From the NCBI GenBank assembly GCA_018340805.1, contig JACMZG010000008.1, forward strand, positions 19,203,096 through 19,267,095: 64,000 bases of DNA, read 5' to 3'. Under the pieces are notes generated by a model. That model was not told the DNA's origin and made no database searches. It saw only the letters and a program-made list of their open reading frames with translations. Position 1 is the first letter of the stretch. Every line of letters begins with the position of its first letter. The position numbers and the translations under genes are program-made. This document shows positions 5,850 to 61,560 of this stretch, in pieces. Origin of the DNA: Microvelia longipes. Its lineage: Eukaryota > Arthropoda > Insecta > Hemiptera > Veliidae.

Positions 5850-6466
<617 letters not shown>

Positions 6467-6479
6467 AAACGCTTTCTTG

Positions 6480-6660
6480 TATCGAAATAAAACTTAGTAC
6501 AAAAATCAACCTTGTTAATGTTCCGTCAAAAATATATGTGACGTCATAACCCACGAAAATGACCCCACAAAATTATAAAAATCATAAAGTTTAGATTGGG
6601 CTGACATTTTTTACACATATACTACTACGATTGGTTCAAGAAATACAAAGTTTTATTGTA
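6480..6660 (+). mobile_element. fragment of the 5S-derived element body
   Basis: Contains the family phrases ACAAAAATCAA and TGACGTCAT in the same order as the element bodies at 12520-12600 and 55950-56010. It lacks the 5S-like block and the 3' end. A fragment by comparison within the window. Confidence 0.5.
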
Positions 6661-6661
6661 T

Positions 6662-6838
6662 TGACACAATATAATTGTGCGAGAATGTAACAAGCAAAAT
6701 GCAATGCTACATCTGGAAACTGTTCCATCATTCGACATTCGTCATACTTGATGGCTCGACATAATGTCATGTCCCACTCTGTTTCGTTACGTCTAACTCA
6801 TCAGGGCGCCGACAGAGCCTAAACTCACTCTGACCTTC
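6662..6838 (-). repeat. inverted partial copy of the 317-bp hammerhead repeat
   Basis: The reverse complement matches the tandem units that follow at 6839-7582, so the two orientations meet tail to head near 6838. It contains one full hammerhead core on the minus strand (6776-6819) and stops at a GTGTCAA-type sequence. The separate copy at 43094 stops at the same point. Confidence 0.85.
6776..6819 (-). ncRNA. hammerhead ribozyme motif, inverted copy
   Basis: Read on the minus strand: helix III strand CTCTG, cleavage triplet GTC, GGCGCC, core CTGATGA, helix II GTTA with loop GACG and TAAC, core GAAA, then CAGAG closing helix III. All invariant core positions are present. Confidence 0.7.
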
Positions 6839-7050
6839 AGATGTAGCATTGCATTTTGCTTGTTACATTTCCTTGGTGTCTCTCGCACAATTATATTGTG
6901 TCAACTATTCATGTTTTGCAAAACTCGGTAGTATCAAAATGATATATGTTTTGCTTGCCATGCATGATGGCGGTAAGAGAGCACCGCTCGTCTCTGGTAA
7001 GTACTTCACATTATATTCTTCGGAATTGATTGAAGGTCAGAGTGAGTTCA

Positions 7051-7094
7051 GGCTCTGTCGGCGCCCTGATGAGTTAGACGTAACGAAACAGAGT
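7051..7094 (+). ncRNA. hammerhead ribozyme motif, unit 1
   Basis: CTCTG then GTC (predicted cleavage after 7059), GGCGCC, CTGATGA, GTTA, loop GACG, TAAC, GAAA, CAGAG. Helix III is six pairs and helix II is four perfect pairs. Helix I would be formed by the self-complementary GGCGCC, which cannot fold into a stable hairpin on itself. Cleavage may therefore need two units pairing as a double hammerhead. This is a type III layout (open at helix III). Confidence 0.72.
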
Positions 7095-7367
7095 GGGACA
7101 TGACGTTATGTCGAGCCATCAAGTATGACGAATGTCGAATGATGGAACAGTTCACAGATGTAGCATTGCATTTTGCTTGTTACATTTCCTTGGTGTCTCT
7201 TGCACAATTATATTGTGTCAACTATTCATGTTTTGCAAAACTCGGTAGTATCAAAATGATATATGTTTTGCTTGCCATGCATGATGGCGGTAAGAGAGCA
7301 CCGCTCGTCTCTGGTAAGTACTTCACATTATATTCTTCGGAATTGATTGAAGGTCAGAGTGAGTTCA

Positions 7368-7411
7368 GGCTCTGTCGGCGCCCTGATGAGTTAGACGTAA
7401 CGAAACAGAGT
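7368..7411 (+). ncRNA. hammerhead ribozyme motif, unit 2
   Basis: Identical to the unit-1 motif and exactly 317 bp downstream, with predicted cleavage after 7376. Cleavage at both sites would release a 317-nt RNA spanning 7060-7376. Confidence 0.72.
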
Positions 7412-7606
7412 GGGACATGACATTATGTCGAGCCGTCAAGTATGACGAATGTCGAATGATGGAACAGTTCACAGATGTAGCATTGCATTTTGCTTGTTAC
7501 ATTTCCTTGGTGTCTCTCGCTCAATAATATTGTGTCAACTATTCATGTTTTGCAAAACTCGGTAGTATCAAAATGATATTTTATTGTATTATTAGAATCA
7601 ATTCTG

Positions 7607-8779: not shown

Positions 8780-8963
8780 TGTAAATAATGAAAGGAAAAA
8801 AGTCTCTCCACAAAATAAAACTTTATTGGCAAAGCGCTTTCAACTTAGTAGAGGCCATTGTTTGTTAGGTTTTGCGCTGATGATGTCCTCTAGTTAGGTT
8901 GAAAGCGCTTTGCCAATAAAGTTTTATTTTGTGTAGAGACTTCATTCCTTTCATCATTTGTAA
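8780..8963. repeat. imperfect palindrome with a hammerhead-like core
   Basis: Arms of about 68-72 bases (8780-8852 and 8897-8963) share the phrases AAAGCGCTTT, CAATAAAG and GAGACTT in opposite orientation. The right half contains CTGATGA at 8879-8885 and GAAAGC at 8901. A related single copy lies at 61370-61430. Best read as inverted terminal pieces of a Penelope-like retroelement, by analogy with the other hammerhead-like sites here. Confidence 0.6.
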
Positions 8964-19174: not shown

Positions 19175-19291
19175 TATATGTGCAGAACTTTAGAACAGCA
19201 AAGGAAAGCATAGGCCATATCATTATATTATTTGCGGGCAATTTTGAATAGATTACGCTTTCCTATGCTGTTCTAAAGTTCTGCGCATATA
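19175..19291. mobile_element. hairpin MITE, 117 bp
   Basis: Arms of about 36 bases (19175-19211 and 19256-19291) are inverted copies: GCAGAACTTTAGAACAGC on the left, its complement on the right. A TA at each end is compatible with a TA-targeting transposon. Confidence 0.75.
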
Positions 19292-25138: not shown

Positions 25139-25171
25139 GCTGATGATGCAGAGTTACATTCTGCGAAACGT
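25139..25171 (+). ncRNA. hammerhead-like core (Penelope type)
   Basis: CTGATGA, one extra T, GCAGA, loop GTTACAT, TCTGC, GAAACG: the conserved cores are intact and helix II has five pairs, but there is one inserted base after CTGATGA. Helix I and helix III are not clear, so activity is doubtful. Confidence 0.45.
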
Positions 25172-38549: not shown

Positions 38550-38576
38550 AGCTTTCGCCGTGCGGCTTCGTCAGGA
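38550..38576 (-). ncRNA. hammerhead-like core (Penelope type)
   Basis: Minus strand: CTGACGA, A, GCC, loop GCAC, GGC, GAAAGC. The seventh core position is C instead of U (tolerated in hammerheads) and one base is inserted after CTGACGA. It lies about 320 bases beyond the 3' end of the Penelope-like coding remains at 38895-40112, on the same strand. Confidence 0.45.
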
Positions 38577-38894: not shown

Positions 38895-40112
38895 TGATAC
38901 CAGGAGGAAGTCGAGATTTCGTTACATATTGGTAAGCGAGCTCCATATTCCTTCTGTCACAATCAGAGGTACCGGTAGGGAGGAGACGAAGTGGGCGGAC
39001 AGTAAAACAAGAATTAAATCACTGTTATGATACCTGCATGTATGGCAACAGGAAGAGTGACAGGGTTGTGATTAACCGAATTACGATGGTTGTTCATGCG
39101 TAGGGAAAGGAGGGTTTTAGTTTCACCAATATAAAAAGCGTTACATTGAGTGCACTCTAAAACATAGACTAAATTGGAAGAAGTGCACGTAGTGGAAGAA
39201 GTTATGGGGTATGATATATTAGTAACAGGACTGGTGAACGAGGTAGAAGGATTAAGAATAGGGCAGGTTTTACAAGGTTGGAGAACACGTCTATTACAGG
39301 GATGTATACCAGGAGGATTGTTGTTATTATTAGAATAGGAAGAAGGAGGTTTGGTGTGGACAAAAAGGTTACGGAGGTTAGGAGGACGACGAAAGGCAAC
39401 CGACGGAGGTTTAGGAAGTAGGTCACGTGTGAGAGGGGAGTTTTCCAGGATAGGGAAGGAAGTTCTAAGGACGTTGTTTAATTTGTGAAGACCAGGAAAA
39501 AGGTGTGGTTAAATTAGTACTGGAATTAGATGGTATTTTCAGGGGGAGGACGGGATATATAGGTTTATTAAGTTGTTTATCAATTAGAGGTTCAGGATAT
39601 CCGCGTCGTACGAGGGCCTGAGATAAGTTTTGATTAAATTTATCAAGTCCCTCTCGATCAGAACAGATTCTTTTGCCTCTAACTGTAAGAGAATATGGAA
39701 GGGATTGTTTGGTGTGATAAGGATGACAGGAAGAGTAATGAAGTATTGTTGATGATTTGTGGGCTTGATATGTACTGAAGTTTGGAGAGAACCCTTAGAG
39801 AGGTTAATATCCACATCAAGGAAAGTAGCAGAGCTATCAGAAGAAGACCATGTAAACTTCACACTGTACCAGGTGTTGAGGTCTGAAAGAAAAGATGCTA
39901 ATAGCTCAGGGCCGTGCGTCCAAATCATGAAAATATCATCTATAAAACGGCGCCAGTGAAGAGGTTTGGATGGTTGTCTTGATAGGAAATCTTCTTCAAG
40001 TTTTCCCATAAAGAGGTTACTGTAAGACGGAGAGAATTTAGAACCCATCGCCGTACCTTTAATTTGTAAGTAGAAGTCATCCTCAAAACGAAAAATAATA
40101 TAATAATATAAT
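38895..40112 (-). pseudogene. Penelope-like retroelement, 5'-truncated, RT and GIY-YIG remains
   Basis: Reading from 40112 down: FYLQIKGTAMGSKFSPSYSN, LFMGKLEEDF, WRRFIDDIFMIW and FLDVDINL. These are the palm and thumb motifs of Penelope-type reverse transcriptase (the catalytic pair is IDD). A frameshift near 39745 restores HTKQSLPYSL and RGKRICSDREG; another near 39500 precedes the linker FRRPPNLRNLFVHTK and a Cys-rich CNRR/CKTCP segment. The GIY-YIG domain follows at about 39045-39190 (LVYVLECTQC, AFYIGETKTLLSLRMNNHR), ending in LPPGINQR near 38899. The left part of the protein is missing: the RT begins at a TA microsatellite. Penelope-like elements move by target-primed reverse transcription using the RT and the endonuclease; this copy is inactive. 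Confidence 0.85.
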
Positions 40113-43093: not shown

Positions 43094-43290
43094 GTATTGT
43101 TGACACAATATAATTGTGCGAGAGACACCTATATAGGAAATGTAACAAGCAAAATGAAATGCTACATCTGCGAACTGTTTCATCATTCGACATCATTGAT
43201 GGCTCGACACAATGTCACGTCCCTCTCTGTTTCGGTACGTCTAACTCATTCAGGCTCTGTCTGCGCCCGATGAGTTAGACGTAACGTTAG
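43094..43290 (-). repeat. diverged solo copy of the 317-bp hammerhead repeat
   Basis: Matches the inverted copy at 6662-6838, including the abrupt end at the TTGACACAATATAATTGTGC phrase. The ribozyme core is damaged (CTGAATGAG instead of CTGATGAG, GTACC instead of GTAAC). A second piece in the other orientation follows at 43252-43283 (CCCGATGAGTTAGACGTAAC). Confidence 0.7.
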
Positions 43291-61360: not shown

Positions 61361-61560
61361 TCTCTCTACAAAAACATATTTCTTTATAGCAAAGCGCTTT
61401 TAACCTAACAAAAGGCCATCATCAGTGCTAGCCGTTGAATAAATAAGAGGGTGATAGATGAGTCTTGCCAATCAGATATCAAAGATTAAGTCTATCTTTG
61501 ATATCTTGTCAGTAAGACTCATCTTTCACCCCTACTCCATTAACGCTCACCTTAGTTTTC
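61361..61560. mobile_element. Penelope-like terminal fragment with hammerhead-like core and palindrome
   Basis: Minus strand 61399-61428: CTGATGA, T, GGCCT, loop, AGGTT, AAAAGC, a decayed hammerhead-like core (first G of GAAA lost). 61449-61542 is a palindrome (GGGTGATAGATGAGTC left, GACTCATCTTTCACCC right; centre near 61490). The left part resembles the palindrome at 8780-8963. Confidence 0.5.

Follow-up and report, generated by a model that had tools for sequence, protein, structure and literature searches.

How does a short non-coding repeat with hammerhead ribozymes come to stand in a genome as two opposed arrays, and what kind of enzyme put it there? The question is raised by one locus in a 64,000-nucleotide stretch of Microvelia longipes DNA (contig JACMZG010000008.1; hereafter the window, with coordinates counted from its first letter). 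A preliminary description had reported two direct hammerhead cores 317 bp apart plus an inverted third at the left, and sequence, BLAST and TRF (6838-7579, period 317, 98% matches) agree on this. It had also read the repeat as bounded by hammerheads between 6662 and 7582. Instead, the insertion spans 6663-7578, is flanked on both sides by TTTTATTGTATT, and ends at about unit position 162 on the left and 203 on the right, where position 1 is the base after the predicted ribozyme cut. The third motif is present, but the layout around it had been missed, as it belongs to a second, inverted arm. The head-to-head arms, their fixed outer ends (sites A and B), the target duplications and the signature of Penelope-like elements (PLEs) were all absent from that description. 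The features are:

6651-6662, no strand: left target-site duplication TTTTATTGTATT, from sequence
6663-6839, minus: left arm, unit 1-162 plus 289-317, inverted; outer end is site A
6665-6679, minus: hairpin A, stem CACAAT/ATTGTG; the left arm stops just 3' of it
6776-6818, minus: type III hammerhead core, inverted copy; RF00008, 37 bits
6838-6839, no strand: the two arms meet here by their 5' ends, overlapping by 2 nt
6838-7059, plus: right arm, first partial unit (unit 96-317)
7052-7094, plus: type III hammerhead core 1; RF00008, 37 bits; predicted cleavage after 7059
7060-7065, plus: helix I of core 1, GGCGCC
7060-7376, plus: right arm, complete 317-bp unit in ribozyme-cut phase
7369-7411, plus: type III hammerhead core 2; RF00008, 37 bits; predicted cleavage after 7376
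7377-7578, plus: final partial unit of the right arm (unit 1 to ~203), with site B as its outer end
7566-7578, plus: hairpin B, TATCA-AAA-TGATA, at the outer end; from sequence and fold
7579-7590, no strand: right target-site duplication TTTTATTGTATT, from sequence
43096-43286, minus: old diverged copy of the 317-bp unit, ~86% identity over 166 aligned columns (BLAST)

The unit has a GC content of 0.42 and no continuous open frame. In the window, the left arm has a 12-bp internal deletion (unit 127-138), and the old copy carries a short inverted piece at its inner end.

The three cores read CTCTG-TC^GGCGCC-CTGATGA-GTTA-GACG-TAAC-GAAA-CAGAG (^ marks the predicted cut). They have the CUGANGA...GAAA core, an NUH triplet and helices II and III in type III order, and the motif is consistent with the two predicted cuts. 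Each matches Rfam RF00008 (Hammerhead_3) at 37 bits (E = 5e-6 in a 1.4-kb stretch, 2.4e-4 in the whole window). The score falls short of the gathering value of 48.5, and a scan at that threshold gave no match; the looped helix I is absent. Indeed, no stable looped helix I with a loop I-loop II contact was found, the helix I strand being a loopless GGCGCC. The matches and the sequence bear out the type III order that had been proposed, and the reduction of helix I to GGCGCC holds across the family: the palindrome is intact in 170 of the 174 units covering it, despite its CpG. Positions 1-34 are unchanged in 139 of 174 units. A type I reading was rejected, as by eye no helix I partner adjoins the core.

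Comparing the helices with the rest of the unit had been suggested as a check. The substitution rate is lower in the hammerhead (0.0029) than elsewhere (0.0052, six hypervariable positions excluded), a weak contrast from one family whose copies are mostly 95-99% alike; it is no more than suggestive of conservation because the units are non-independent and the loci were picked by similarity. Looking for other loopless hammerheads of type III with a relaxed pattern revealed no second family: the pattern matched 62 times genome-wide and never in the control, and by eye 61 of the matches are decayed copies of the 317-bp family and one is probably chance. There is therefore no covariation evidence. 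A genome search with RF00008 found no match among the 68 scored of 80814 first-look candidates, and the control genomes were likewise without a match.

Without a looped helix I, how might such a hammerhead work? The expectation that a monomer folds poorly into the hammerhead agrees with predicted energies, in which the pairing without helix I reaches -6.2 kcal/mol versus -12.0 for the free optimum. The proposed double hammerhead joined through GGCGCC also appears possible, at a predicted -28.5 versus -24.0 for two free monomers (2 x -12.0), although an unproductive duplex at -33.6 is predicted to be more stable still. We infer that the loopless hammerheads should act mainly as pairs through GGCGCC. 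This would resemble the double hammerheads of newt, axolotl and ASBVd, in which an unstable helix is rescued by palindrome pairing of two hammerheads; the weak shared helix is described as helix III in axolotl (PMC7229834) and in ASBVd and newt (PMC3088659), and would be helix I here. PLE hammerheads, which are minimal type I forms without helix III, may also cut as dimers (PMC7761336, citing Cervera 2014 and Lunse 2017), whereas the retrozyme hammerhead would pair via helix I. A loopless palindromic type III hammerhead would represent a second design for ribozymes acting in pairs. In the anole, a PLE hammerhead was reported to cut only with protein present, and insertion of that element in vitro did not need hammerhead cleavage (PMC11167929). 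By analogy, protein-dependent cleavage and insertion without cleavage may apply here too.

The insertion in the window is one of many. A 32-base core, allowing up to 2 mismatches, occurs 6549 times (3233 + 3316) in the 664.6-Mb genome and 0 times as a reversed control, so the core lies beyond chance, and the dispersed retrozyme-like family that had been foreseen is there. The exact 33-base core had no match in viral contigs. We sampled 20 regions around the best genome matches, chosen by similarity to the window unit; eight of 30 further loci (the others lay inside fetched regions or the window); 8 core-search loci; 16 regions on contig C505 (4 + 12), from the core-search listing; and the window itself. 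The 57 clusters, minus five duplicate rows, came to 52, of which 35 are two-armed with both ends inside, 10 are one-armed pieces, and 7 are cut by a fetch edge or by N.

Thus 35 of the 45 complete clusters are two-armed, mostly as opposite arrays whose 5' sides meet in the middle, with arms of 0.1 to about 11 units. Their outer ends are fixed at site A (~161) and site B (~205), ~44 nt apart: classified ends fall at unit 154-167 or 197-214, within windows (150-170 for A, 196-216 for B) that were set after the first loci had been inspected. Every script-classifiable two-armed insertion, 32 of 32, carries A plus B, with A on the left in 16 and B on the left in 16; none of these 32 has A/A or B/B ends. 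The script left three of the 35 unclassified (L020, L066 and L072). L020 has B at its right end and, by eye and allowing for its duplication, A at its left, while the ends of L066 and L072 stay unclassified. Among one-armed copies, all eight classifiable ones end at A (two pieces of L052 are unclassifiable), and the readable ends of the 7 cut clusters are A in two and B in four.

The ends also carry scars of insertion. Repeats of at least 10 bases, corresponding to 10-14-bp target duplications, flank 26 of the 35 two-armed loci versus 17 of 1190 mismatched flank pairs; the other nine two-armed loci lack an end repeat of that length. The family is not satellite DNA, as it consists of dispersed short arrays with duplications and fixed ends. 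In the predicted fold, site A lies just 3' of the hairpin CACAAU-UAU-AUUGUG, and site B just 3' of UAUCA-AAA-UGAUA, which is seated on a GCAAAAC/GUUUUGC stem; between the two comes the 12-nt sequence GTTTTGCAAAAC, a perfect palindrome. Compared with 100 shuffles, the circular fold is predicted to be only modestly stabler (z -1.8). Where the arms meet, the 32 simple loci (L044, L066 and L072 were excluded as complex) show an overlap of 1-6 nt in 14, a flush junction in 4, and filler of 1-10 nt in 8, 11-40 nt in 4 and more in 2.

Head-to-head inserts, short target duplications and a tail on one end are the architecture of PLEs. In a rotifer, PLE inserts are described as inverted pLTRs set head to head with an optional 31-bp tail on one side, and their duplications, where present, are 8-10 bp, some inserts having none (PMC3846280). 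The retrozyme tail is ~44 nt, compared with 30-40 nt in PLEs. A biochemical counterpart is reported for the anole (PMC11167929): the purified protein of its PLE cleaves both strands and extends them, beginning at two neighbouring internal sites within an AC-rich stem loop; the sequence that separates these start sites corresponds to the genomic tail. That source reports no strand difference in the start site. Unlike autonomous PLEs, the 317-bp unit encodes nothing, neither a reverse transcriptase (RT) nor a GIY-YIG endonuclease.

PLEs are present in the same genome. The window itself holds a remnant (39014-40102, minus strand) with RVT_1 and GIY-YIG matches, both just under the Pfam cut-offs, and downstream of it (38554-38574, minus strand) a minimal hammerhead-like motif, CTGACGA-AGCCGCACGGC-GAAA, then CTCGAG. 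The remnant is separate from the 317-bp unit, which lacks an RT or GIY-YIG frame. Reading the remnant (38.3-40.1 kb) and the old copy (43.1 kb) as one element was rejected, with ~3 kb between them and no visible link. Genome-wide, the RT of the window PLE has at least 152 matches; among the listed neighbours within 5 kb, nine pairs are head to head and none tail to tail, by eye. In one tandem PLE (L081), an RT match falls in a frame of 832 aa and a GIY-YIG match in a partial copy upstream; L081 also holds a minimal hammerhead-like motif. Relatives bearing species names are from animals, at 49% identity or less (best 120 of 291). Two RT matches stand out for their reading frames: G000:C707:6062827-6063183 lies in an unusually long open frame of 2241 aa, and G000:C518:24225283-24225639 in one of 1953 aa, with two stops noted.

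Three inserts were drawn from the nine head-to-head PLE pairs before their ends were seen. In each, one end is short and the other exceeds it, the difference being 38, about 39 and about 33 nt. An 11-bp duplication is present at one insert; in the other two the duplication is unreadable because they lie in TA-rich repeats. The unit showed no similarity (best E 0.63) to six regions fetched as PLE 5' parts (L075-L080), a weak comparison because L075-L078 have no visible PLE start and only two of the six visibly hold one. By analogy with these elements, we infer that PLE machinery inserts the 317-bp retrozyme.

We therefore favor, at a probability of roughly 0.7, a reading in which this is a non-autonomous, animal-type retrozyme whose circular RNA would be copied into DNA by PLE machinery, starting from the two sides of a staggered break. 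Twin priming by an L1/RTE-like enzyme of the LINE type likewise yields inverted, head-to-head copies with target duplications. Such an enzyme starts at the RNA 3' end, and the second primer invades at random, which should scatter one of the outer ends; here both are fixed, B included, in all 32 insertions with A plus B, and by eye none of the listed insertion ends has a poly(A) tail. Twin priming is accordingly very improbable. We give similarly little credence to self-priming of a cDNA on an antisense template followed by integration, even though this was proposed in 2013 for head-to-head PLE repeats (PMC3846280). It predicts a palindrome at the inner junction, whereas the inner arm ends differ in position and 14 of 32 overlap by only 1-6 nt, and the two outer ends differ systematically as A and B.

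If PLE machinery did prime on both strands, what was its template? The inner arm ends are scattered over the unit, and after exact base-by-base extension none of 70 lies at positions 1-3. A pile-up of 8 arms at unit position 1 looked like run-off at the cleaved 5' end, but was an artefact of the monomer query, since every one of the 8 goes on for another 2-21 nt. As many as 51 of 70 arms cross the ribozyme cut (45 that have two or more aligned segments, a number that complex loci may inflate, and 6 extending 4-21 nt past it). Because they run across the cut, their template was not a cut linear monomer, but a ring or an uncut multimer.

The two arms of an insertion also share source variants: their mean distance is 0.078 versus 0.205 when permuted, and none of 20000 permutations was as low (23 loci, seven variable positions; L017 combines two insertions, and a small number of loci are truncated). 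For example, 44G is common to every covered unit of both arms of L043, whereas the two arms of L042 differ. Mixing within arrays was tallied in 23 arms of four or more units, and affects positions 194, 64, 65, 132 and 44 in 7, 7, 6, 6 and 3 arms, respectively. Positions 44, 64/65, 132 and 194 are recurrently mixed in arrays that are otherwise rather uniform, such as L040, L042, L037 and L031; possible causes are base modification in the RNA, stuttering of the RT and a heterogeneous template. A single uniform ring explains the mixed arrays and L042 only with one of these additions, and a 317-nt ring as the template is supported only indirectly, by the arms that cross the cut site and the lack of arm ends at positions 1-3.

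The closest competitor keeps the two-ended PLE insertion and replaces the ring with a linear multimer, transcribed from an existing array and left uncut. We consider it unlikely, though it deserves more weight than either alternative above. A multimer could account for the mixed variants in some arrays and for the plus arm of L033, in which units 4 and 7 share a multi-variant haplotype, and cleavage may be inefficient if the hammerhead needs a partner. It fits less well with variants that both arms carry in all their covered units, as with 198A in L020 and 64-65TG in L036, or in nearly all, as with 110T in L039 (5 of 6 units in one arm and 5 of 7 in the other), although such uniformity could also come from a multimer array that was itself derived from one ring. 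Moreover, there is scant room for captured upstream transcript, as the gap at the junction stays within 33 nt at 30 of 32 loci.

In the ring reading that we prefer, transcripts of genomic copies would be cut at GTC^GGCGCC by hammerheads acting mainly in pairs through GGCGCC, and the freed 317-nt RNA would close into a ring. A Penelope-like RT-endonuclease would bind this ring near hairpins A and B and make a ~12-nt staggered cut with 3' overhangs, to which the observed duplications would correspond. Both 3' ends would then prime reverse transcription, one strand from A and the other from B, giving the A/B ends that we find. Each cDNA would cover part of the ring or circle it up to about eleven times, and end-joining would unite the two cDNAs head to head at the observed junctions.

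A bolder version of this model, which we advance tentatively and put at somewhat under even odds, would make the ribozyme a one-way lock. By trading the looped helix I for a palindrome, only multimers would cut themselves, and the closed monomer ring would be safe. The ring would then serve as an endless template, on which an asymmetric PLE dimer would start at A and B for the two strands of the same break. If this is right, head-to-head double arrays made by rolling-circle copying would be a general signature of animal retrozyme movement.

How does this family compare with known retrozymes? Non-LTR retrozymes of metazoans are described as non-coding tandem repeats of 150-450 bp with a hammerhead and a GC content under 50% (Cervera & de la Pena 2020, PMC7229834), and the family resembles them in its 317-bp length, GC content of 0.42 and non-coding tandem hammerhead repeats in arms of up to ~11 units. 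According to the same source, target duplications of metazoan retrozymes, when present, exceed 4 bp, like the repeats of at least 10 bases in 26 of 35 two-armed loci, and these retrozymes coexist with hammerhead-bearing PLEs. Their hammerheads are type I, unlike the type III form with a loopless palindromic helix I found here, and in the text of PMC7229834 the word 'inverted' is absent, so that this term, at least, is not used there for a head-to-head layout.

Type III hammerheads in tandem are shared with plant LTR retrozymes (PMC4918200; features via PMC7229834 and PMC7761336), for which a circular RNA intermediate is reported (PMC7229834, PMC7761336). The plant elements are described as having LTRs, a primer binding site, a polypurine tract, 4-bp duplications and circles of 600-800 nt (PMC7229834, PMC7761336). 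They have 600-1000 bp between hammerheads, whereas here the spacing is 317 bp, the duplications are 10-14 bp and the ends are fixed and internal. The unit also departs from most type III hammerheads, whose helix I is reported to be 6 bp long and looped (PMC7936874), in having no such loop; the animal type III hammerheads noted in that source, in HDV-like RNAs and in termite and dipteran genomes, have longer helices. Among the papers that searches of the open-licence literature listed, we recognized no description of head-to-head or palindromic type III features in retrozymes.

The enzyme that moves animal retrozymes is treated as an open question (PMC7761336): the repeats are said to show no motif that betrays an autonomous helper (PMC7761336), and PLEs are named as strong candidates for a helper of metazoan retrozymes that the literature treats as unknown (PMC7761336, PMC7229834). 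Because the insertions examined here bear a PLE-type scar, the class of helper can be read from the DNA. The rule of one A plus one B end offers genomic support for two-strand priming from two RNA sites, as seen in vitro for one PLE, without a strand difference (PMC11167929).

Several other motifs in the window were noted. A (TA)n tract of 229 bp lies at 6232-6460, ~190 bp left of the insertion; TA-rich tracts also host two of the three PLE inserts that were read. CTGATGA...GAAA core-like strings occur at 25140 (plus), 17783 (minus), 8877 (plus), 35037 (minus) and 61379 (minus), the first two with a helix II that is complementary by eye; all five are possibly decayed minimal hammerheads of PLE type. 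A fold-back sequence at 8820-8922 has inverted ends of ~25 nt (8820-8844 and 8898-8922) around its core-like motif, and a similar string lies near 61379 on the minus strand. Finally, 19175-19291 (plus) matches Rfam mir-1245 at 44.4 bits, below the gathering score of 79, and is perhaps a repeat-derived hairpin.
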